Source: Mycoplana rhizolycopersici
GTDB taxonomy: Bacteria > Pseudomonadota > Alphaproteobacteria > Rhizobiales > Rhizobiaceae
Direction: 5' to 3'
NCBI RefSeq assembly: GCF_013378445.1
Contig: NZ_JABXYK010000004.1
Coordinates: 186,001 to 250,000 of the forward strand
DNA: 64,000 nt
Shown: piece after piece, positions 52,084 to 64,000 of the stretch
Numbering within the stretch: the first letter of the stretch is position 1
Layout: each line of letters opens with the position of its first letter
Translations under genes and position numbers: made by a program
The notes under the pieces: model-generated
What the model saw: only the letters and a program-made list of their open reading frames with translations
Told to the model about the DNA's origin: nothing
The model's database searches: none

Positions 52084-53202
52084 ATGCATTACGATACGCG
52101 CAATCTCGATCTCGCGACGCTCTTTCTGCCCTGCTGCAGGGCGGTGGAGGCGCTGGCGCGGATGGACGAGCGCGTTTTGCGCTCCACGATCCGCGAGGGG
52201 TTTCTGCAGCGCCAAGACTTTCAGGACGCCGCCGCCTCGCTTTGGGTCGATGGCGAACTGGTACATGTGGAGGATCTCGTCCTGCACGATGCGCGCATGG
52301 ATGTGCGCACGCCCACGCACGAGCTGACGATCGCCCATTCCGTACTTCGCGCGCGGCGCCAGATCTTCGATCAGCCGCCGCCCTGGGCATTGACAGCTGC
52401 GGGGCTGGCACGCCTGCGCGGACGCGCGGAGGAAGGGCGTAGCGACCAGATGGCGGTATCGGCTTCGCCGACGTTGGATGGCGCTGCGGCCGGCGATGGC
52501 GACCGCGACGACGCAGCGGACGATGAGGTGGGCGCCGAGTTTGCGGAAATCGATGCGCTGCTGGCGCGCAGCAGCGCCGTGCTCGACGACGTGATCGCGC
52601 CTTCGGTGCGCACCAGCCGCTCCCAGCGCGATCCACTGGTGTACGATGCCGATTGGGACGAGGAGGAACGCCTGGCGGAATGGCGTGCGGTGTTTGCGCA
52701 GACGGCCGGTCTGCCTGCCGTCCTGCGTGCGGCGCTCCTGCTCGATGCCTGGAACAGGCTGCAGGTTCTTCAACATATCCCCTGGCTCGGCCGCCAGCTC
52801 GTCGCGTCGTTCCTCAGAAGAGAGGCGAGTACTGGAGCCCATCTCACCGCCGTGAATGCCGGCCTGCGCGCCGTCGCGCGCGAGCGCCGTCACGCCCCGG
52901 ATCGCCAGACGCGATTGCTGGCGATCCTCGAAGGTTTCGAACTGGCGTCCGAACTGGGTCTGAAGACGCACGACCGGCTGGTTCTGGCGAAGCTGCAGCT
53001 GGAGCGGCGGCTGGTCGGAAAACGCGCCAATTCGAAGCTACCCAAGCTGGTTGATCTCGTCATCGCGCGTCCGGTGGTGTCTGCCGGCATCATCGCCAAG
53101 GAACTCGGCGTCACCCCGCAGGGCGCACTCGGGCTTGCCGCCGAGCTGCAGCTTCGCGAGATCACCGGGCGCGAACGTTTCCGCGCCTGGAGCATCCTCT
53201 GA
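52084..53202 (+). CDS. RHE_PE00001-family protein (DUF1612 and HTH)
   Basis: 372-residue protein found mainly in rhizobia and often on plasmids. The N-terminal part (1-130) has NLDLATLFLPCCRAVEALAR and LVLHDARMDVRTPTHELTIA. The centre (about 150-180) is acidic and low-complexity. The C-terminus (about 285-372) ends in a helix-turn-helix-like KLVDLVIARPVVSAGIIAKE. Function unknown; relatives near plasmid or mobile regions have been suggested to bind DNA. It converges with the giant gene pair, 18 bases apart. Confidence 0.8.
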   Translation: MHYDTRNLDLATLFLPCCRAVEALARMDERVLRSTIREGFLQRQDFQDAAASLWVDGELVHVEDLVLHDARMDVRTPTHELTIAHSVLRARRQIFDQPPPWALTAAGLARLRGRAEEGRSDQMAVSASPTLDGAAAGDGDRDDAADDEVGAEFAEIDALLARSSAVLDDVIAPSVRTSRSQRDPLVYDADWDEEERLAEWRAVFAQTAGLPAVLRAALLLDAWNRLQVLQHIPWLGRQLVASFLRREASTGAHLTAVNAGLRAVARERRHAPDRQTRLLAILEGFELASELGLKTHDRLVLAKLQLERRLVGKRANSKLPKLVDLVIARPVVSAGIIAKELGVTPQGALGLAAELQLREITGRERFRAWSIL

Positions 53203-53220
53203 CCGGTGAAGAAGTTCCCG

Positions 53221-56200
53221 TCACCTGTCCCGGAAGGGGATCGGTGCATACATCTCGATGATCTGCAGGAGGGCGTCTCCAGGCGGTTGTTCGGCGAACA
53301 CCCGGTGCGGGTCGATTGTGTCCTCGACCTCCGGAGGGAAGAATGCGCGCCAGGCATCGCTACGCCATGTGGCGATATCGCTGTCCGCCACCGTTGGCTT
53401 TCCGGTGCGCACGGTCAGGATGCGGCCGTAGAGCGGACCTTTTTCCGGCGGCACCGGCGGATTTCCCGTTTCGAAGGGTTCGAGCGTGATGTTGCCGCTG
53501 CCGTCCGCTTGGCCGTCCGGGGAATGATAGAGGCCAACGTAGGCTTCGTCGGTTCCGCCCGCGCCGTTGGCGATCCCTGCAGTCACCAGAAGCAGGCTGA
53601 ACAGCCCCTGGTCTTTCCGGCCCGCCGCCCGCTCCTTCGCAAGTCCGTTCGTTGCAGGCCAGCCACCTGCCGCAGCGAGCAGCAGCTTTGCTCTGTCTTG
53701 CGGATGGAGCTGCAGCGGAAGGCTGTCCACGGGCACCTTGCCGAGCCGGCCAAGCACCTCCATGTTGGGCAGGAATTGCGTCCAGCGCCCTTCGGTCGGC
53801 TCCGACAGCTGGAGTGCGCTGCTGACCCGGATGTCGCCTACGCTCGCGCAGGTCTTTTCAACCTTCATGTCGAGCGTCAACGGCTCGCCCGACGTATCCT
53901 CGGTGCCGCCGGGAGGCGGAGCGTTGAACCAACGGTCCTGCCATGCGAGGAACCAGTGCCCACCGGTTTCTCGCAGCAGCAGCACGATGTCGAACCACGC
54001 ATAGCGCGGTCCGCCAGCATTTTCGGGGTCGATCAGGGACGACCGGCGAACCGCTATGACACGTGCGTCGAAGCCGGACGCTTTCATGTCGAGCGTTCCT
54101 TCCCCGAAATCGAGCGCCCACTTCCCGCCGGCGCGAACGCCCTTGACCGTAAGCTCCCGGTTTCCGGCGCCGAGCCGGGCTTGCAGCACGAGCTGGATCG
54201 TTGCCTTTTCGCCGCTCGCGGCGATGTCGTGCTGGGTCAGCGAAATCTGCGCTGATGTCGAGTGGATCGGCGAAGCCTGCACGTCGTCCCAGTAGCTTTC
54301 GGTGGCTTCGGCGAGGGCGAGGCGGCGGAAGGCGATCTTGCCCATCCACCAGGCGGCGGGATCGGTATCGGCAAAGCCGGGCGCCCGGACGGCGAAGGAA
54401 CTGTTTAGGAAGAGGCCGGTTGCGGTACCGGTGTCGAAGCCATGTCCGAGCGGACCTGCAACCGCGAGCGGCGCCACGCTCGTGAGTTCTTCAATCTTCG
54501 GGGAGACGGAAGCCTGCGTTTGGCGCCCCAGTCCGTGGGTTCGCACCAGCGGGTCGGGACCGAATTCGGCCGCACGCGCGGGGGTCTCCTTGCCGGTTTC
54601 GGGATCGACCAGTTTCCTGCGATAGGCGATCTCTGTGCCGGCGAGCAGCCAATCGGCAAGGCCGGCCTGTTCGTACCAGGCGCCGTCAACGATCACCAGC
54701 ACGCCGGATACCGGCGAAAGCTCGCCGCCATCCTGCACAGCCCTCGTCAATGGAAGGACCGCCTTGATGCCCGGTTTCGGCGGAGGTTTCGTTGCCGTGG
54801 CAGGCCGCAGCATCCGGTACCAGCCGGTGGTCCAGCTGGCGCCGGCATTTGCCCAAAGGGCGCGCGGGCGTTCGAGCGCAATCCCGGCCCTCTCGTAGGC
54901 CGCCGTGTAGCGCGATACGGCGCGTGCCCTGAAGCGGAGATAGCGGGCCGGCTCCAGGCGCTGCGGCGCGTTGAGTGCGATGCGTATGGGGAGAGGCTGC
55001 GGTGGGTCGCCCGCGGTGACGGTCTCGGAAATCGGGACCGTTACCGTGAGATCGCCGAGCGTCTCGTCCAGCCGCTCGGCAAAGCCGAAGACGTCCCAGA
55101 GCAGGGGATAGCTTGACGGCGAGGGCGGTTCGCGCCGGTTCGCCGGATTGCTGTCGTTTGGATCTGCAGGGTCCCCGGCGGGAAAATCGTTGAAGCCGGC
55201 TGCCGGCTTGAACGGGAAGGCCGGCAGCGGCCGTCCCGTCCATCGCCAGGCCTGCGTGCCAACGGTGATCGATCCAACGGCGTCCATCGCAACGCTCGGC
55301 GTACGAGTGAACTCCAGACGGATATCTCCACCGCGTTCGTCTGCAGCCGCGGAGCCGCCTACGACACGGCCAGCTATGGCGGCGGCAAGTTCGGTCCGGG
55401 AGGGCATTTCCTGGGACGCGCCCTCGACGGCGAAGGCATGCAGGCTGAACAGGCGATAGGCATGGCCGTCCTTGTCCACCGGCAGTGCGCGGTCGGGCAG
55501 AGGCTTGTCGGGCAGGCTGCCGACGCAACTGTTACGCACGACCCGATCGAAGCGGCGCTGGCCGTCGGGCAAGACCGGATCGCTGAAGCGTTCCCTGCGC
55601 ACGGCTGCGAATATCTGCACGATCACCACGTCACCGGCAGCCAGCGTGACCGTCAGGCTGTCCTGGTCGAACAGGTCGTCATCCTGGCCTCCAAGCCTGC
55701 AATTCAGCATGAACGGCGACCTTGTGGCGAACGGTGCATCGACCGTCGTGCCCGGTTGCCATTGCCATGCCCATGGCAGTATCAGCGGAGCAAAGGCGCC
55801 GTCCGCAGCAACATTTGCGCCATCGCGCCGCACGCGCACGACGCGGATGGCAAGCCCGTCCACCGCCGGATCCTGCAGGACGAGGTCCTCGCGGATTTTT
55901 GCAATCCTCCTTTGCAGTTCTTCGGCGTCTTTCCCCCGTGCCGTCGCAAGCTGCCTTTCGCATTCATCGAGCTCCTGCGTCAGTGCTTGCTGCCGGTCCC
56001 GCAAGCCTTTTCGAAAGGTGCGAAATTCGTCGCGGTTCGGGTCGTCGCCTGCCAGTAGAGCCTCGTCCAAGGCGATCCATCTGTCGAAATCCTCAAGCGG
56101 CGTGACCGGCGGATCGATACGCAGTTGCAGCTTGCCGCACCTGCCATCGACCTTGCCGCGGCTGCCGTCGGCAAGAAGAACCGCCGTCTTCATTTTCAGT

Positions 56201-58989
56201 GGCCGGTTGGCCGAAGAGGACGGGGTTGGAAACCACGGCTCGACCACTTGCGATGGCAAGAGTATTTCCTCCGCCAGCGGACGCGTTTCCTTGCCGGGAA
56301 CGAGCGGATGGTAGCTTTGCCCATCCGGCATGGGATTGGCTGCCACACGCAACGCGCCAATGCCGGTGCGGCGCAGATAGGTGAAGCGGCGGACGATGTC
56401 GCTGTCGGCTTCAAAGAGGTCATCTGTCAGCTTCTCCGTCGCAAGCAGGGCCGGATGCTCCGTCTTTCTGATCATTTCCGGCAGCGCTCCCTGATTGGAG
56501 ATACCGAATGGAGCGATCTCGTAGGTCGCGCCATAGGTGAGGAACGGAATGAGCGTTGCCCTTGGTGCGCCGTCCTGCTTCGCCGGTTGAACGAGCCGTA
56601 CGATCCGGGGATCGGGGTCATTGTCCGGTTGGCGTTCGATCGCTGTGCTGTCCTGCATGTCGCCGATGATCGGATGATTGTCATAGACGACCGTTGCCTG
56701 CGGCGCGGGGCCGATGTAGCCGACCGGCAGTGCACCGAGTACGGTCCTGTCCGCCATCTTGAACTCGACCGGACAGGGGCCGCTGCCAAGCTTCTGGTCC
56801 GGATCGATTTCCGCATAGGATGCCGTCAGGCAGCACCAATCGCCCGGCGGTTGCGACCGGCGCATGAGAATGCCGTAGCCGGCGAGGTCGTCGTTGAAAT
56901 CCGCCTCGGAGGACCGGCTGACGACGAAACGGTCGATCTGCAGGGCCAGCGGATGGGCGTCGGGTGCCAGAGGGCCGCTCAGCAATGTTTCGCCGCCATC
57001 GTCCATGTCGGGCTCGGCGAACCACGATCGGACACGCCCGGCAACGGCAGCGTCGAGCGCGTCCGCGAATGCATCGCGAACGCCGGCCGGTAGCGCTGCG
57101 ACCCGTCCATGAAGGCTTTCGTAGGCGGCTTCCAGCCCCGCCGCTGACCCTGTCGTCTCACAGAGTGTGCCGAGAGCATAGGCTCCGATCGCCTCGCGGA
57201 TGCTGCCTTTCTCCGTCTCGCTTCCGCGCAGGAGATCGATATCGCGCGCGGTGCCTGGCGCAGACTTGCGCCAGATGCCGGCATCACAGATCCAGGGCAA
57301 GTCTATGTTGGCGCGCCGCAGAACGGAGACCATGTCGAACTGCTGCTGCAGCAGGCGCGCGAAGGCTTCGGCCGCATCGACCAGCCAACGCTGGAAGGTA
57401 GTGTCGGCTTCGGCCGCCTTGCGCCAGATGGCGAGCTGGATGGCGGCCGCATTGGCGGGGTCTACCGCGGCATCCACGATCTTGCGCAAGGGTGCCGCCT
57501 CATAGGGGCCATCGAGGTCCGGCGCACCGGCGGTCTGCTCGGTGATCGCCACTACGAAGGCCTCGCCGTCCGTAGGCAGATCCAGTGCCGGCGCGATGAC
57601 GCCGGCGAGCAGCGCGACCCATGCGGACAGCGCCGCGCCGGCACCTGTTCCGCCCATGCGAACCGCGTCGCGAAACGCCTTGTCGTCCTGTTCCAGCAGC
57701 GTGGCAAACCGCGCGGCACCTTCTGCATCAAGTTTCGCTTCGCGGACCAGCAGATTGACCTGCGCTATGATCGTCCGGTGAGCCGGCGAGCCATTCGGTC
57801 CTTCGAGCACCGAGCCGTCCGGCCTCGTGACGAGGCCAGGCCCGACGATGTCGCGCAGGGCGGCAAGCGTGGCAAGCGTCAGGCGGCGGGCACCTTCGCG
57901 TCTGTCGCCCGCAGCGATAGAGGCGTTCAGCGGTGATCCGGGTGCTGCGGCATCGCCCTCGAGAGCAAGCAGGAGGAGGCGCGGCAGGTCGAAGCCCTCG
58001 CTCGCACGCGCCGGAAGCTGCGCGAGCCAGTCCTCGAACCCGATGCCGGCGCGCGGGTTGTCGGATGCCGCGTCGCTATGCCTGCGTCGCACCCATAGGG
58101 TTTCGAGGTCGATGAAGCTCGCCGCACTTGCCGGAACCGAGACAGGATCGATCGCCCGGCAGATCGCTTCGACGGCATAGATGGTGAAGGGGGCCTTGTA
58201 CGGGATGGTCGCGATTGCGGATGTGCCGCTGCCCGACCATACGACCTGTGAGAAATCGGGTTCCAGAACCGTTCCGGAAATCAGCTTGAGCCGGGGTGCT
58301 GCCACCATCAGGCATTTTTCGCCAGCGTTCGGTTTCCTGATTGCTGTCAGTCTGGCGAACCGGACAAGGTTGAGGACGCCGTGCGGTATCGGCGCTGGCA
58401 GGCAAGCGAGGGCGGCCATAAGCGCTTCGTAGCGGTAATCACGCTTGTCCTCGTAGGTCTCGTCGATGCGCTGCCTGGAGTTGTCGTCCCCGAGCCCGGC
58501 CAGCACGAACGGGCAAAGCTGGGTGAAGTTTGCCGTATGTTCGGCTGATGCCAGCTCGGCAAGTGCGGCGTGACGAAGCGCGGCAATAGCCGCGTCCGTC
58601 AACTGGTAGTCCGGTGTGCCAGCACCGCCGCCGGCGGGAAGGGGGATGTCCTGAAGGGTGAAGCCGCTGGGGTCGGTAACCGGCGGTGCCGTTGGATTTC
58701 CGGCGGGAAAGGACGCCCAGAGCGCTTCGAATTCGACATCGCCGCCGATCCAGGGAAACAGCGGACCGGCCCCCTTCTCCAGCCGGTCGAGATAGCCGGA
58801 AAAGTCCGCGCCTCCGGCCTCCGGCAGGGGCAGCTCGCGGACGTCGGAGAACAGGGGTTCGGCGGCCTTGGCGACATCCTCGTCCAGATCGGTGGCGCGA
58901 AGTGCAGCGCCTGTCAGGCGCATGCCGACCACGGGCGCGTCCTTTGCGCCGGGGGCGCGCACGAGATCACAAAGAAGCACGAATTTCAT
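53221..58989 (-). CDS. Giant protein of unknown function (1922 residues)
   Basis: Second gene of the giant pair. No signal peptide; it begins MKFVLLCDLVRAPGAKDAPV, after GAGGG, ten bases after the partner stop. About 1-350 is mixed alpha/beta with an early FSGYLDRLEKGAGPLFPWIG. About 350-800 is helical and Ala/Asp-rich. A charged coiled coil follows at about 966-1036 (RQQALTQELDECERQLATAR). After 1040 it is rich in beta-like segments, Trp and Pro (RFRARAVSRYTAAYERAGIA), ending in the short motif ALLQIIEMYAPIPFRDR. I recognise no enzyme domain, repeat or membrane helix. Base and codon use look like the neighbours. Structural or scaffold role is a guess. Confidence 0.85.
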   Translation of the reverse strand: MKFVLLCDLVRAPGAKDAPVVGMRLTGAALRATDLDEDVAKAAEPLFSDVRELPLPEAGGADFSGYLDRLEKGAGPLFPWIGGDVEFEALWASFPAGNPTAPPVTDPSGFTLQDIPLPAGGGAGTPDYQLTDAAIAALRHAALAELASAEHTANFTQLCPFVLAGLGDDNSRQRIDETYEDKRDYRYEALMAALACLPAPIPHGVLNLVRFARLTAIRKPNAGEKCLMVAAPRLKLISGTVLEPDFSQVVWSGSGTSAIATIPYKAPFTIYAVEAICRAIDPVSVPASAASFIDLETLWVRRRHSDAASDNPRAGIGFEDWLAQLPARASEGFDLPRLLLLALEGDAAAPGSPLNASIAAGDRREGARRLTLATLAALRDIVGPGLVTRPDGSVLEGPNGSPAHRTIIAQVNLLVREAKLDAEGAARFATLLEQDDKAFRDAVRMGGTGAGAALSAWVALLAGVIAPALDLPTDGEAFVVAITEQTAGAPDLDGPYEAAPLRKIVDAAVDPANAAAIQLAIWRKAAEADTTFQRWLVDAAEAFARLLQQQFDMVSVLRRANIDLPWICDAGIWRKSAPGTARDIDLLRGSETEKGSIREAIGAYALGTLCETTGSAAGLEAAYESLHGRVAALPAGVRDAFADALDAAVAGRVRSWFAEPDMDDGGETLLSGPLAPDAHPLALQIDRFVVSRSSEADFNDDLAGYGILMRRSQPPGDWCCLTASYAEIDPDQKLGSGPCPVEFKMADRTVLGALPVGYIGPAPQATVVYDNHPIIGDMQDSTAIERQPDNDPDPRIVRLVQPAKQDGAPRATLIPFLTYGATYEIAPFGISNQGALPEMIRKTEHPALLATEKLTDDLFEADSDIVRRFTYLRRTGIGALRVAANPMPDGQSYHPLVPGKETRPLAEEILLPSQVVEPWFPTPSSSANRPLKMKTAVLLADGSRGKVDGRCGKLQLRIDPPVTPLEDFDRWIALDEALLAGDDPNRDEFRTFRKGLRDRQQALTQELDECERQLATARGKDAEELQRRIAKIREDLVLQDPAVDGLAIRVVRVRRDGANVAADGAFAPLILPWAWQWQPGTTVDAPFATRSPFMLNCRLGGQDDDLFDQDSLTVTLAAGDVVIVQIFAAVRRERFSDPVLPDGQRRFDRVVRNSCVGSLPDKPLPDRALPVDKDGHAYRLFSLHAFAVEGASQEMPSRTELAAAIAGRVVGGSAAADERGGDIRLEFTRTPSVAMDAVGSITVGTQAWRWTGRPLPAFPFKPAAGFNDFPAGDPADPNDSNPANRREPPSPSSYPLLWDVFGFAERLDETLGDLTVTVPISETVTAGDPPQPLPIRIALNAPQRLEPARYLRFRARAVSRYTAAYERAGIALERPRALWANAGASWTTGWYRMLRPATATKPPPKPGIKAVLPLTRAVQDGGELSPVSGVLVIVDGAWYEQAGLADWLLAGTEIAYRRKLVDPETGKETPARAAEFGPDPLVRTHGLGRQTQASVSPKIEELTSVAPLAVAGPLGHGFDTGTATGLFLNSSFAVRAPGFADTDPAAWWMGKIAFRRLALAEATESYWDDVQASPIHSTSAQISLTQHDIAASGEKATIQLVLQARLGAGNRELTVKGVRAGGKWALDFGEGTLDMKASGFDARVIAVRRSSLIDPENAGGPRYAWFDIVLLLRETGGHWFLAWQDRWFNAPPPGGTEDTSGEPLTLDMKVEKTCASVGDIRVSSALQLSEPTEGRWTQFLPNMEVLGRLGKVPVDSLPLQLHPQDRAKLLLAAAGGWPATNGLAKERAAGRKDQGLFSLLLVTAGIANGAGGTDEAYVGLYHSPDGQADGSGNITLEPFETGNPPVPPEKGPLYGRILTVRTGKPTVADSDIATWRSDAWRAFFPPEVEDTIDPHRVFAEQPPGDALLQIIEMYAPIPFRDR

Positions 58990-58999
58990 CGCGTGGCCC

Positions 59000-61900
59000 T
59001 CATGCAAAGCTGTCGAGATAGTGTGGTCGAGAAGAGGCTGCCGCGGCCTTGCCGGATGATGACGATTTCACCAGGTGATAGGTCACCGACTGGCGCACCT
59101 TGATTTCGCAACACCAGCAGATCCGGAAGCTGACCTCGATCGTCCCGCGTCCGACCATCGAGCCGTCGTCGCGATAGACGAGTTCCAGCAGCAGCGACAG
59201 GCCGATGTTGAAGCGTCCCAGGATGACGATACCGCCGCGCAGGAGGAAGATCACGGCAATGGAGAAGCTGGTTCCGCCACCTCCGTCACTCTCGAATTCG
59301 GCGTAGACGCCAAACATCGCGTAGACAAAACCGCGGCATGGCCCGAATGCGAAGTCGAGCCCGAGGCCGGCCGTGAGGCCGATCGAGACCGCGCTCGAGA
59401 GGCGGCCGGAGGCCGGAAAATAGGTCGCGCGCGTCTCGAGCCAACCGCCGCCGACCATGAGCCAGACACGCAGCGCGAACGGCTCGGCCTTGCGTCCCAT
59501 CGCCAGCGTCGTTGAAAGGGCGAAATCGCCGCGCTTTCCGCCGGATCTCGCCTTGATAAGGGCGAAGGAGCTCGAAAAGCGCAGGCCCGTTGCCGAGAAG
59601 GCGCCGAAGGAGAGCGGCGGCATCGGCAGTTCGAGCCGTGCGGCAAGGCCAGCCGGGAAGCCCTCTTCTTCCAGCATTTCGAGGAAGAAACCCGCGCCCG
59701 GTTCGCTGAAGGACTTGACCAGGTCCGACAGAAACCGGATCGAGCGATCCAGTCGAATGCGGCTCGGATCGATGTCGACATCCAGCCCCTTGCCGTCCTC
59801 GAACGTGACGCGCGTACGCTCCAGCGTCACCAACGGCCGGCCGCTGAAGGCGAGCTGCCAGTCGCCCACGATTTCTCCTCGCGTCGTGCGGCGCGTGATG
59901 CCGTCCAAACCTGCTGCGAAATCCGCAAGTGCCTCGAAGCGGCCACCGGCCATGGACAGTTCCAGTGGCCCCGCCTCGAAGATTTCGCAGCGATCCGGAA
60001 AGGGCGCTGCCGCTTCTGCCTTGGCCCACGCCGTCAGCGTCGCCTTGTCGAAACCGTGCGTCAGCTTGACCTTCTCGTTCAGGGATGCCGGCATTTTCAG
60101 GTTCCTGAAAAGGCCGTCCAGCTTCAGGCCGCCAAGGTCGGGGAAGAGCTTGCCGAAATCGAACTGGTCCATGCCCTTGGGAACCAGGCGATCGAGGATC
60201 TCGTCGGTGGGAACGCGGATGCCGAGCGCCTTGAGATCGTCATCGAGGCGGTTCATCAGCGCGACGACCGGCGAAGTCCGGATGGCATCGCGCGCATCGT
60301 CGAAGAAATAGGCGATGCGCTCGCGGTTGAATTTCAGGTTCGGCAGGATGGGCGACGTACCCGCTGCACGCACCAGCGCCAGCGTGTCGCCGGGGTTCTG
60401 GAACGTCGGCGCCTGCGACAGCCGCTCATAGCCCGCTTCGAGAATACGGATCTGGTCGCTGATCGATGCCGGCACCTGCTGGCGCAGGCCTGCTGCGACC
60501 GCATCGGCGGCGTCGCCGAGTTTGCCTGCCGCGTCTGCGATGATGGCGGTGAGATCGCCGGTTCCGGCCTTCAGCGCTGCGATGCACTCGTCCACCGATC
60601 GGATCAGGCGATCTTCCAGCGAAGAGATCGCGTCCTGTGCGGTTTGCACCATAGCTATGGAATCGGCAATTTCCTGTTCCACGACGTCGACGGTGGCGCC
60701 GAACTCGTCCAGCAGATTGCCTGACGCTCTTTTGATGGCATCCTTTGTCGCTGCTGCCTTGCCCGCCAGATCAACGGCGAAGGAACGAAGCGCGCCAAGC
60801 GCAGTCCGCAACGCCGCCAGTTTTTCTTCGATGGACGAACCCACCACAGCGCAGACGGCATGAAACTTGTCGATCTCGTCGGTGAGGTGCTGGTCGAGAT
60901 CGCGACCGAAGGCGGCGACCGCGTCGTCGCTGTCGGCAGCCATTTGGCGCCCCTGGGCGACGAGGCCCGTGAGATCGAGACATGCGCCATCCAGCGATGC
61001 GATCGCCTTGTCGATCGCCGCCCCTACCGCCGTCTGAATTGCCGCGAGGTCGAATGCGGCGTTCTGCGCCGTCTTGAGCGCTTGTCGGTGGAGCGAGACG
61101 AGCGTGTCCCGCACGTCGTTCAGGAATTCGTCGAGCGTCTTCTTTCCGCCAGCGAACAGCTGCAGGGTCTTGATCGAGCGCGGCAACTGCCTGCGCGCCG
61201 TCACCGCGATCGTTTCCAGTTTGGCGAGCAGCGAGCGGTGGAGCGCGTCATACGAGGCGACAAGCGTCCTCGCCTCGTCCGGCTCCGCGGCCTCCAGTTC
61301 ATCGCGAAGCTTTGCAGCCGCCGTCTTGAGCGTATTCCGCGCGGCGTTCATTTCACCCGCAAAGCCGTCGATCGCCCGGTCTAGCCGGGATAGCGCCTCG
61401 CCGACCTTGCCGGGGCTACGTGCGATGGCGGTTCTAACGGGCGTCAACGCCTCCTCGATGCGTCGTGCCAGGACTTCCGCCGTCGATGGGGTGACGCCCT
61501 CCGCCAGCTTGTCGAATCCGTCGATCAGCGCTTCGCTCGCCTTCAGCAATTGGTCGGCGCGCGCAACAAGGGCTGCTTCCACGCCGGACCAAAGCCGCGC
61601 TTCGGCCGTATCAACCTTATCGGTCCAATGTGATTTCGCATCCGCAAAGGCATCTTTTGCCCGCCGGGCAGCGGCTCCGATCGCCTGGCGTGCATTCGCG
61701 GCTTCCTTCCGGATGACGCTCTTGATGGTTCCAAGACGGTCGATCTCGGCATCCAGCGCCCGCCTGATTGCCGCCTCGTCGGGGCGGTGAAGGCTGAGCC
61801 GGCCGAGACTGGCGAGTGCCGCCTGCGCTTGCGCGAGGCCGTCATCGAGCACGCGTTCGAGCCGGCGCGCATCGGTAAGGACGCGATCGAGCTCCTGCCG

Positions 61901-63985
61901 GACCGCCAGCGCCTTGCCCGGCCCGCCGCCGTCCTGCCCGCTCGAGGACGAGCGCATCATCGTAACGTTTTCGAGGACCGCGCCGACCGGGTCGGCTGCG
62001 CTGCGTCCGTCCATCAGATTGGCGGCCGTGCCGGAGGTATCGAGATCGAAGGTGCAGGCATCGAAAAGGGGATCGCGCATCATTTCGTCGGGTGCCGGCG
62101 CATCCGGATCGGCGGCGTCGATAACAGGCTTGCCGACGGGCAAAGGTGGCGGCGCGTTGACGAAATCGATGCCCGCGCATGATGCCCAGAGATTGGGATC
62201 GTCGCCTTCCTTGCGCGTTGTGGTGAAAAAGACGAGCTGGCTCGGATCGCTCAGCCGGGCTTGTGTGGAGGCTGCGGTGTCCATGTGCGCTGCGGCGATC
62301 TGCAGCCGGATATCGGGTTTGGGATAGACCTCCGGATCGGCGTCGGGCTGCCAGAGGGGGACGATCCAGCCGCCGTTGACGTCGCGGCCCCACCGGCCGT
62401 CGACGGGGATGCGGCGGGAGCGGAACAGGCAGGCCTCGACGAAGCCGCGTGAACGCGGGGCGGCGCCGCTTTCCGGATAGGTGCGATCGGACTGGATGAT
62501 ATCGATGTATTCGGCCGCCTTGCGGACGATCGGTCGGCCGAAATGCTGTCCGGCCTGCTGATCGGCGAACTGGTCATGCGGCAGCACCGTTCGCTCATAG
62601 ACGATGACGTGTTTGGCGATGTTCCAGAAGACGCCGATGCGGCCGATCCGCTCGACGCTGTAGGTCTCGGTCCGGCCGAAATTCGTGTCGGAAACGATGC
62701 GTGTCTTGTCGTCTGCGAAGAAGGCCCGGACGAAGCCTGATCCGCCGAGGGCGGAGAATCCGGGCTGAACGATCTGGCCACGCGTGCTGCGCGGTTCCTT
62801 CATGACCTCTTCGAAGATGTTGCTCGATTCGAAGCCGCGCGTTGCGCCGCCCCTCAAGCCGGCAGAAGCGCTTTCGGGGTTCCAGGGCTCCCGGTCCAGG
62901 TCTGCATCGTCGCGAAGCTCAAAAGCGACCTTCTCCTCGACCGACAGCGGCCCATAGCTACCCTCCCGATAGGCCTCGAACGCGGCAAGTCGCGTGCCGT
63001 AGAGCTTGGCGAAAGAGGCGCAGAGGTCCCGGAAACGATCATAGAGTTCCGCCTCGACGAGCGGTTGCGCGGAGGTGGGTGCGCTGCTGCTCGCCGCAGC
63101 CAGCCTCCGCCGGATGCCGGCCGGGCGGGCGGGCAGCGGATCCCGGATGGCCCCGATGCGGGCGCCGTGCTCGGTGAGCCGCAATCCCGGGGTCGTCATC
63201 CGGCCCGCGAGCCCGTAGAGAAACTCCATCCGCGCCGTGCGCAGTCCGGCGCCGGGCGCACGCTCGCCGGCAAAGCCGAGCACGCGGCGAACGTTCCACG
63301 GCGCTTCCGAGTATCGCTGGCGATAGTAGGACGACAACAGCGCCAGCCGCGAAACGGTGCCGAGCCGGTAGTCGAGTGCCACTTCCGATCCCGCTGCAGA
63401 GATGGAGGGCCAGGGTTCACCCTTTTCGAAGGCTTCGCCTGTCGCCTGCGGTGGAAAATATAGGTCGAAGCCTTCGGTGACGCCGGCGACTTCCCATTTG
63501 GCCCCGCCGTTCTCGGACAGTTCCCAATTGGCGATCTCGCCGTCATTCTCCTGGGCATCGCTTGCCGACGGGACGAACGTCGGCACGTCCACCATCGCTA
63601 TGGCGAAGGGTTCGGGATCGACGACGATCGTCCGCTTTTTCTGCTGGGCCGGGGATGTGCCCGAAGCAAGCGGTTCCCGGTGCAGCGTCAGGGCGAGGTG
63701 GCGATTGCGATTCGTGGCGGTTGTCTCATCCCCGCGCAGAAAGAACGGCGTCTCCCCGTAGCTGCCGTTCACCGCAGCATCGACGATGACGACCGGCGTC
63801 TCGCGCGACAGATTGCGGGCTATCCGCCGCTCCCGTTTCGCCTGTGTGCTATCGCCGGCCTCGGGCCTCGTGAGGTCCTGGAGCACTGCGTCGAAGGCGC
63901 GCGCAGCATCGGGAACGGGATCTTGCGCGCCTGGCCTTGCGTCCCGCAGTTCAAACTTTTCGATGCGCAGCCGAAGGCGGGGCAC
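59000..63985 (-). CDS. Giant protein with helical rod and beta-rich C-terminus (at least 1661 residues)
   Basis: First gene of the giant pair; start taken as GTG at 63985 (GGGGAAGCG ahead), but the frame is open to the window edge, so the true start may lie outside. No signal peptide is visible. Residues 1-690: soluble, mixed, with VVIVDAAVNGSYGETPFFLR and QPGFSALGGSGFVRAFFADD. Residues about 690-1195: alanine-rich, nearly gap-free helices suggesting a long rod or tape-measure-like region. Residues about 1300-1661: glycine and hydrophobic alternation (e.g. SIGLTAGLGLDFAFGP) with a Phe/Leu-rich stretch near 1580-1610 that could enter a membrane, then CWCCE. Not recognised. Confidence 0.85.
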   Translation of the reverse strand: MPRLRLRIEKFELRDARPGAQDPVPDAARAFDAVLQDLTRPEAGDSTQAKRERRIARNLSRETPVVIVDAAVNGSYGETPFFLRGDETTATNRNRHLALTLHREPLASGTSPAQQKKRTIVVDPEPFAIAMVDVPTFVPSASDAQENDGEIANWELSENGGAKWEVAGVTEGFDLYFPPQATGEAFEKGEPWPSISAAGSEVALDYRLGTVSRLALLSSYYRQRYSEAPWNVRRVLGFAGERAPGAGLRTARMEFLYGLAGRMTTPGLRLTEHGARIGAIRDPLPARPAGIRRRLAAASSSAPTSAQPLVEAELYDRFRDLCASFAKLYGTRLAAFEAYREGSYGPLSVEEKVAFELRDDADLDREPWNPESASAGLRGGATRGFESSNIFEEVMKEPRSTRGQIVQPGFSALGGSGFVRAFFADDKTRIVSDTNFGRTETYSVERIGRIGVFWNIAKHVIVYERTVLPHDQFADQQAGQHFGRPIVRKAAEYIDIIQSDRTYPESGAAPRSRGFVEACLFRSRRIPVDGRWGRDVNGGWIVPLWQPDADPEVYPKPDIRLQIAAAHMDTAASTQARLSDPSQLVFFTTTRKEGDDPNLWASCAGIDFVNAPPPLPVGKPVIDAADPDAPAPDEMMRDPLFDACTFDLDTSGTAANLMDGRSAADPVGAVLENVTMMRSSSSGQDGGGPGKALAVRQELDRVLTDARRLERVLDDGLAQAQAALASLGRLSLHRPDEAAIRRALDAEIDRLGTIKSVIRKEAANARQAIGAAARRAKDAFADAKSHWTDKVDTAEARLWSGVEAALVARADQLLKASEALIDGFDKLAEGVTPSTAEVLARRIEEALTPVRTAIARSPGKVGEALSRLDRAIDGFAGEMNAARNTLKTAAAKLRDELEAAEPDEARTLVASYDALHRSLLAKLETIAVTARRQLPRSIKTLQLFAGGKKTLDEFLNDVRDTLVSLHRQALKTAQNAAFDLAAIQTAVGAAIDKAIASLDGACLDLTGLVAQGRQMAADSDDAVAAFGRDLDQHLTDEIDKFHAVCAVVGSSIEEKLAALRTALGALRSFAVDLAGKAAATKDAIKRASGNLLDEFGATVDVVEQEIADSIAMVQTAQDAISSLEDRLIRSVDECIAALKAGTGDLTAIIADAAGKLGDAADAVAAGLRQQVPASISDQIRILEAGYERLSQAPTFQNPGDTLALVRAAGTSPILPNLKFNRERIAYFFDDARDAIRTSPVVALMNRLDDDLKALGIRVPTDEILDRLVPKGMDQFDFGKLFPDLGGLKLDGLFRNLKMPASLNEKVKLTHGFDKATLTAWAKAEAAAPFPDRCEIFEAGPLELSMAGGRFEALADFAAGLDGITRRTTRGEIVGDWQLAFSGRPLVTLERTRVTFEDGKGLDVDIDPSRIRLDRSIRFLSDLVKSFSEPGAGFFLEMLEEEGFPAGLAARLELPMPPLSFGAFSATGLRFSSSFALIKARSGGKRGDFALSTTLAMGRKAEPFALRVWLMVGGGWLETRATYFPASGRLSSAVSIGLTAGLGLDFAFGPCRGFVYAMFGVYAEFESDGGGGTSFSIAVIFLLRGGIVILGRFNIGLSLLLELVYRDDGSMVGRGTIEVSFRICWCCEIKVRQSVTYHLVKSSSSGKAAAASSRPHYLDSFA

Positions 63986-64000
63986 CGCTTCCCCGGCACG

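Follow-up and report, generated by a model that had tools for sequence, protein, structure and literature searches.

A linked pair of giant bacterial genes, gained or lost as one block, with a possible role at the cell envelope

Tc (ABC) toxin complexes are giant, multi-gene systems in which a shell holds cargo, and their marker domains in Pfam are of the TcA, SpvB or Rhs type. Apolipoprotein B combines amphipathic helices and amphipathic beta-strands in one chain, and wall hydrolases are typical of tails. Here we describe a two-gene unit that recalls each of these in part, located at the right end of the window (the whole 64,000-nucleotide stretch of DNA that was analysed), and we refer to its upstream gene as A and to its downstream gene as B.

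Both genes lie on the minus strand and are read in the order A, then B (Table 1). The first-pass annotation had reported two giant open reading frames ten bases apart that run off the right window edge, and the positions confirm this, as the A stop codon occupies 59002-59000 and the B ATG stands at 58989, leaving 10 bases between them and an AGGG stretch before the ATG. Counted instead from a TTG at 59007, B would comprise 1928 aa (53221..59007) and overlap A by 8 bases. The full-length A gene has 2167 codons from a GTG start (C4:245000-251503; window-equivalent end 65503). Because conservation extends along both reading frames, with identities of 21-88% in the 37 other rows of the A alignment and 16-86% in the 36 other rows of the B alignment, neither is a chance ORF. 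Further ORFs on the same strand upstream of A (501, 263, 243 and 686 aa) appear, from their translations inspected by eye, to be shadow ORFs of genes on the plus strand, FtsK among them, and we therefore count the operon as two genes. An AT-rich stretch on the A strand, ~113-140 bases upstream of the A GTG, carries a 10-of-12 sigma-70-like match, which is a consensus match only. The pair is flanked on the left by plus-strand ABC transporter genes and a DUF1612/HTH_13 gene convergent with B, and on the right by the start of a plus-strand SDR-like gene and FtsK (by eye), followed by a minus-strand GlcNAc 2-epimerase gene. Some 8 kb from A, beyond the right edge of the window, a 268-aa protein with a penicillin-binding transpeptidase domain is encoded (L003:9903-10709).

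Table 1. Features of the A-B pair in the window and wall-related genes beside related pairs
Feature	Coordinates	Strand	Basis or remark
Gene A (upstream giant), 3' 1666 codons	59000..64000	-	ORF open at window edge
A conserved core, residues about 560-1195 (block ...AKHVIVYERT...)	61919..63826	-	conservation; modelled together with residues 290-559
A Ala-rich amphipathic helical stretch, residues about 1200-1685	60449..61906	-	composition and periodicity
A conserved C-terminal domain, residues 1675-2150	59054..60481	-	22 predicted strands of at least 3 residues, porin-like meander
Gene B (downstream giant)	53221..58989	-	from ATG at 58989
Better conserved part of B, residues about 680-1560	54328..56970	-	conservation; includes block 1330-1560
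A-B block absent from three same-genus genomes, left part	53200..64000	.	right boundary outside window, equivalent about 65680-65780
L028 Nitrosospira: Tae4, then DUF2272			Tae4 directly behind second giant
L056 Sphingopyxis: Tae4			151 bases before A
L025 Bradyrhizobium: Tae4			2.3 kb behind B; from genome search, separately called ORF there without match
L022: Tlde1-domain gene			16 bases before A
L021: M23 gene			106 bases before A
L036 and L059 (Chryseobacterium): PG_binding_1 genes			behind B, with sub-threshold CHAP matches
L060: Rv2525c glycoside-hydrolase-like gene			45 bases before A
L055: polysaccharide deacetylase			113 bases behind B
L009: PG_binding_1			neighbour
L029 and L039: DUF3238			neighbours

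Among seven genomes of the genus, two have a match to B (the window's genome, G000, and G004) and five do not. We compared the site in three of the five pair-less genomes (G002, G005 and G006), whose left flanks end within two bases of one place and whose right flank resumes after 1.09 kb, 125 bp and 116 bp, respectively, as against 12.5-12.6 kb in G000. In G002 the intervening 1.09 kb is different DNA, in which a 305-aa ORF lies. Besides A and B, the G000 block holds about 280 bases of upstream DNA and no further gene, and no direct or inverted repeats of at least 11 bases were found at its ends. Comparison of these sites shows the predicted pair to have been gained or lost as one block.

A profile of five A rows, scanned against GTDB contigs, returned 47 loci, spread over Rhizobiales, Novosphingobium, Sphingopyxis, Pararoseomonas, Pseudomonas, Burkholderiales, Nitrosospira, Lysobacterales and Chryseobacterium and, in metagenome bins, over Acidobacteriota, Gemmatimonadota, Planctomycetota and Hydrogenedentota. 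By tblastn, A is present in six PLSDB plasmid records, all from Rhizobium or Sinorhizobium, and B in three of those six. The adjacency of the two genes across genomes, which the first-pass annotation had singled out as worth asking about, is consistent: wherever more than 2 kb of sequence remains after A (49 loci), a giant ORF comes next on the A strand, in 49 of 49 cases and across several phyla (queries were taken from other loci only, near-copies are included, and six further loci end within about 0.5 kb), and it matches B of other lineages in 47 of them. The second giants of a Burkholderiales bin (L026, 14475-19748) and of Nitrosospira (L028, 14694-19694) match only each other and may be either a far-diverged B or a replacement; a 29-row B profile, which finds six of eight held-out divergent rows, misses these two, and they entered the B alignment by position. 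The identity matrices of A and B over 34 shared rows correlate closely (Pearson 0.97, Spearman 0.87), none of 2000 Mantel permutations being as high. We conclude from these comparisons that A and B are shown to be a tightly linked, co-evolving two-gene unit. We rejected an origin of the two as ancient duplicates, since they are not detectably related by hhalign (probability 0.04%).

The A tree is at odds with taxonomy, in that Pseudomonas fluorescens joins a Paucimonas bin (100/100), Novosphingobium joins Pararoseomonas (99/97) and Rhizobium sits on distant branches; its deep forks are unsure because several end branches are long. The pair is also rare. B occurs in 3 of 101 relatives and A in 2 of 121 genomes of the order (the window's own genome included in both counts), and among 200 genomes drawn from the phylum the A core was found in the window's own genome only. 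Each of 40 carrier records holds one A, in one record in two pieces; these records represent 39 distinct genomes, since G004 and G180 are one genome with the same coordinates. Two Rhizobium loci carry interrupted copies, with A and B in several pieces in Rhizobium sp. RCAM05350 E2-1 (L051) and A split in two in R. leguminosarum RCAM1365 (L008), reflecting decay or sequencing errors.

The pair had initially been called an unrecognised operon, a description that holds in that no family used here explains it and its two genes co-occur. Pfam returned nothing for B and, for the whole of A, only sub-threshold matches within the helices, with no NTPase or nuclease domain in either protein; NCBIfam gave no match for the pair, and a direct search of PDB sequences gave none for A or B. 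A 38-row A profile searched against the PDB retrieved generic helical proteins over residues about 1180-1700 (among the best 60 of 1351 rows), and we rejected apolipoprotein, SMC, myosin and ZorA as the identity of A, these being generic helical matches confined to the helical part. The LINE-1 ORF2 and reverse transcriptase matches of a 37-row B profile (E 1.2-2.3) were set aside as chance. A literature search by words yielded nothing on the pair; an unnamed family offers few good words for such a search, and a description under another name is possible. As judged from the profile libraries and PDB sequences used, neither A nor B is explained beyond the helices of A.

Conservation in A is concentrated on either side of the helical stretch, at residues about 560-1195 before it and 1681-2150 after it. 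An AlphaFold2 model of residues 290-1195, built from 44 rows with the R. subbaraonis copy (L013, 88% identical to window A) as the reference row, is mostly beta with a pLDDT of 82 and a pTM of 0.78. Foldseek placed no match to this model above probability 0.08 among the 50 matches listed from the PDB, nor above 0.07 among the 50 listed from the viral folds of BFVD. The modelled A core thus matches no solved fold in the PDB or viral fold searches used, and the Pfam searches and the structural comparison of this core, checks of the kind that the first-pass annotation had named, produced no clear family match. The long alanine-rich helical region predicted from the window is present in A (486 residues, 21% Ala), varies from 397 to 759 residues across 38 rows and has its periodicity peak at 3.6-3.65 rather than 3.5.

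The glycine- and hydrophobic-rich beta end expected from the first reading likewise proved to be at the C-terminus of A. A model of residues 1675-2150 (39 rows) reached a mean pLDDT of 66.6 and a pTM of 0.46, with better-determined long antiparallel strands over model residues 321-470 (pLDDT 79-89 in blocks of ten). The last seven strands of the domain are 14-20 residues each and strongly amphipathic. Its strands have a mean length of 12.6 and a hydrophobic face with a mean KD of 2.13 and 8% polar or charged residues, compared with a mean length of 9.0, a KD of 1.05 and 20% polar or charged residues for strands of the core. The best Foldseek matches of the domain in the PDB were porins (2fgq, E 1.1e-4, probability 1.00), with a TM-score of 0.22 and an rmsd of 17, and because of these last two values we read the match as a likeness in strand pattern with no demonstrated barrel. 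According to the model, the C-terminus of A is an extended series of amphipathic beta-strands of the membrane or lipid-contact type, which lends support to the earlier guess of a membrane- or lipid-contact protein. In B, the single coiled coil noted previously is visible in the translation by eye, directly before residue 1046. Neither window protein has a signal peptide, as had been claimed, or an N-terminal transmembrane helix by hydropathy, and N-terminal hydropathy across 38 A and 37 B rows gave no convincing signal peptide; a hydrophobic N-terminus occurs in one row only (the A of L024, whose start is uncertain), and isolated hydrophobic windows occur deeper in the sequence in some rows.

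When the ORFs surrounding 54 loci were clustered, no family apart from A and B recurred at more than five of them, so that a conserved third gene was discarded. We then considered the domains of individual neighbours at 43 loci, which remain from 62 after removal of 19 own-genome, duplicate or truncated ones, and some of which are alike (for example L037, L051 and L058) or have one flank only. A neighbour domain of a wall-acting or related kind over the Pfam cut-off lies within 2.4 kb at 12 of 43 loci. The number becomes 8 of 43 under a strict count of wall-acting or wall-binding domains (M23, Tlde1, Tae4, DUF2272 and PG_binding_1), which drops DUF3238 (function unknown), the polysaccharide deacetylase and the Rv2525c hydrolase-like gene. 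At the other 31 loci there was no match over the cut-off among the scanned neighbours, only some of which were scanned singly. Below the cut-off we noted C92/NlpC (L030), YkuD (L035), DUF3238 (L047 and L048) and CHAP (L028, L036 and L059). The ORF caller was greedy and chose some wrong frames. The window's own pair has no adjoining wall hydrolase, its 12.6-kb block being A and B only, and the neighbours at L014-L016 are housekeeping genes by eye.

PG_binding_1 occurs in 5 of 126 near neighbours (out of 233, some singly scanned ones being left out, including two with wall-related matches over the cut-off) and is missing from the 25 families shown for a control set of 122 far neighbours, each list giving the best 25 of about 100 families and the far list including every family with at least two members. 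A whole-genome test of proximity rests on Tae4 and DUF3238 only. The 40 carrier records contain eight Tae4 genes in seven genomes, and three of the eight adjoin the pair, compared with a chance expectation of about 0.03 (about 20 kb of 5-6 Mb). Four of the seven genomes have no match to the sheath gene VipB, and in three of these the Tae4 gene is beside the pair and in the fourth (G186) elsewhere; in the three with VipB, Tae4 is not beside the pair. Both DUF3238 matches over the cut-off in the carrier records adjoin the pair. Small membrane proteins showed no enrichment beside the pair, with transmembrane segments in 16 of 124 near versus 16 of 117 far ORFs of 100-350 aa, and on this ground we rejected holin-like small membrane proteins beside the pair.

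Other neighbours recur at a few loci. An upstream trio is shared before A in Bradyrhizobium (L019:4787-9775) and Hoeflea (L043:1557-6638), whose A proteins are distant; in Hoeflea it comprises a TPR protein, a PAP2-type protein and an S8-like peptidase, and an annotated S8 peptidase also adjoins A in L008. Conjugative plasmids of the R. leguminosarum group have SIR2 and DUF6119 near the pair (L009), and the L008 plasmid has methyltransferase, endonuclease and AAA genes there, each arrangement resembling a defence or accessory island. Proteins of Bradyrhizobium (L025:22590-24311) and Metarhizobium album (L055:5595-6503) share a stretch without a Pfam match and could represent a further partner family.

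We tentatively propose that A and B make up, as its two subunits, a single horizontally mobile machine with bacterial envelopes as its site of action, a reading that is possible rather than probable. With optional hydrolase partners it is the best explanation because the giants are linked, co-evolving and block-wise mobile, lack export signals and include a membrane-type beta tail, and because wall-acting genes accompany a minority of loci. Under this proposal assembly of A and B would take place in the cytoplasm, a scaffold or shell would be formed by B together with the beta-rich A core, and the amphipathic helices and C-terminal strands of A would bind or pierce a membrane. The wall hydrolases that adjoin the pair in some genomes may be cargo, or helpers that open the wall; from this neighbourhood we infer a cargo role. 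The wall opened would most likely be that of a competing cell and, less likely, that of the producer itself, for release. Several observations count against such an envelope machine, namely that the window's own block has no hydrolase and most loci have no match over the cut-off, that L028, one of the three loci with Tae4, has a second giant not recognisably B, that G186, a Tae4 carrier without VipB, has its Tae4 elsewhere, and that the model of the A C-terminal domain is middling (pLDDT 66.6; TM about 0.2 to porins). A bolder version, which we regard as improbable, is a new antibacterial delivery device, built from two soluble giants and lacking a sheath, a tube and an ATPase, whose beta tail would open the target membrane and which would carry exchangeable peptidoglycan hydrolases, Tae4-type enzymes among them working without a type VI system.

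Lipid handling and phage defence are serious rivals to the envelope machine. A might hold lipid with B as its partner in an intracellular lipid-carrying or membrane- or granule-coating complex from which nothing is exported, a reading that we consider rather unlikely, placing it behind the envelope machine. The helix periodicity, the amphipathic C-terminal strands and the lack of a signal peptide would all suit it, as would matches to the Apolipoprotein family of Pfam (PF01442) in two of four A rows (best 4.1e-8) and the appearance of P47-type folds, which we take to be lipid-binding, low in the fold list of the A C-terminal domain (probability 0.09-0.13). The Apolipoprotein matches, however, cover the helical part only and stand alongside SMC, myosin and ZorA, window A has none at E 1, and a lipid carrier leaves the wall-acting genes beside the pair unexplained. 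Alternatively, the pair could sense phage and damage the membrane of its own cell as an anti-phage or abortive-infection system. The rare, patchy distribution (the own genome only of 200 in the phylum, and two of 121 in the order with the own included), the conflict of the A tree with taxonomy and two plasmid loci near restriction, methyltransferase, AAA or SIR2 genes all speak for defence. PADLOC, however, run on four proteins, gave only weak matches in the helical part of A and none to the two B proteins, Pfam contains no NTPase or nuclease domain for either protein, and the window's pair lies among ordinary genes, and we judge a defence role to be more doubtful than either the lipid carrier or the delivery device.

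The first-pass annotation had also suggested a tape-measure-and-shell pair, as structural proteins of a phage tail, an extracellular contractile particle or a tail-like machine. The long helical stretch of A and the wall hydrolases beside some pairs would fit, and IMG/VR contributes three relatives, one of which repeats the sequence of a Novosphingobium contig. (L060 and L061 are IMG/VR contigs that are labelled viral.) A tblastn search of phage records with A nevertheless gave no match, PHROGs gave only E 0.18-0.29 (for B and the window part of A), the A core has no viral fold match in BFVD, and no third gene family exceeds 5 of 54 loci. The look to the right of the window for sheath, baseplate or AAA+ genes that had been advised turned up none among the scanned neighbours in the window's genome, where tube matches are also lacking, and the tape-measure guess thus finds no backing; we hold a tail-like particle to be very unlikely. 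The idea of a giant type VI effector, or of a carrier, dependent on the type VI apparatus is hardly any better placed, and indeed slightly less credible: Tae4 and Tlde1-domain neighbours would agree with it, but VipB is found in only 11 of 40 carrier records, with 0 matches in the window's genome (G000), and the three adjacent Tae4 genes all belong to genomes in which VipB has no match.

With about 4,100 codons in two genes, relatives in several phyla and no explanation from the profile libraries, the PDB sequences or, for the A core, the PDB and viral fold searches used, the unit represents a sizeable blank in bacterial biology. Since wall-acting genes, including Tae4 in genomes where no type VI sheath gene was detected, associate with the pair, the question of how such enzymes are delivered becomes testable; were the delivery-device reading true, Tae4-type enzymes would work in bacteria without a type VI system.

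Set beside the described systems, the pair resembles Tc complexes in being giant and multi-gene and in the loose idea of a shell with cargo, but TcB-type chains appear in the fold list of the A core only at probability 0.04-0.05, and neither A nor B has a TcA, SpvB or Rhs-type Pfam domain. Like apolipoproteins A/E and B, A has amphipathic helices followed by amphipathic strands, with profile matches to the helical part and no match found outside it. The C-terminal domain of A shares with outer-membrane porins such as Omp32 (PDB 2fgq) a meander of long antiparallel amphipathic strands, whereas it is the tail of a 2167-aa protein that lacks a signal peptide, and its middling model does not demonstrate a closed barrel. 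As for type VI secretion, the VipB sheath gene is unmatched in 29 of 40 carrier records (28 of 39 distinct genomes), yet enzymes of the kind that serve it as amidase effectors, Tae4 and Tlde1, are encoded in the neighbourhood of the pair in L022, L025, L028 and L056.
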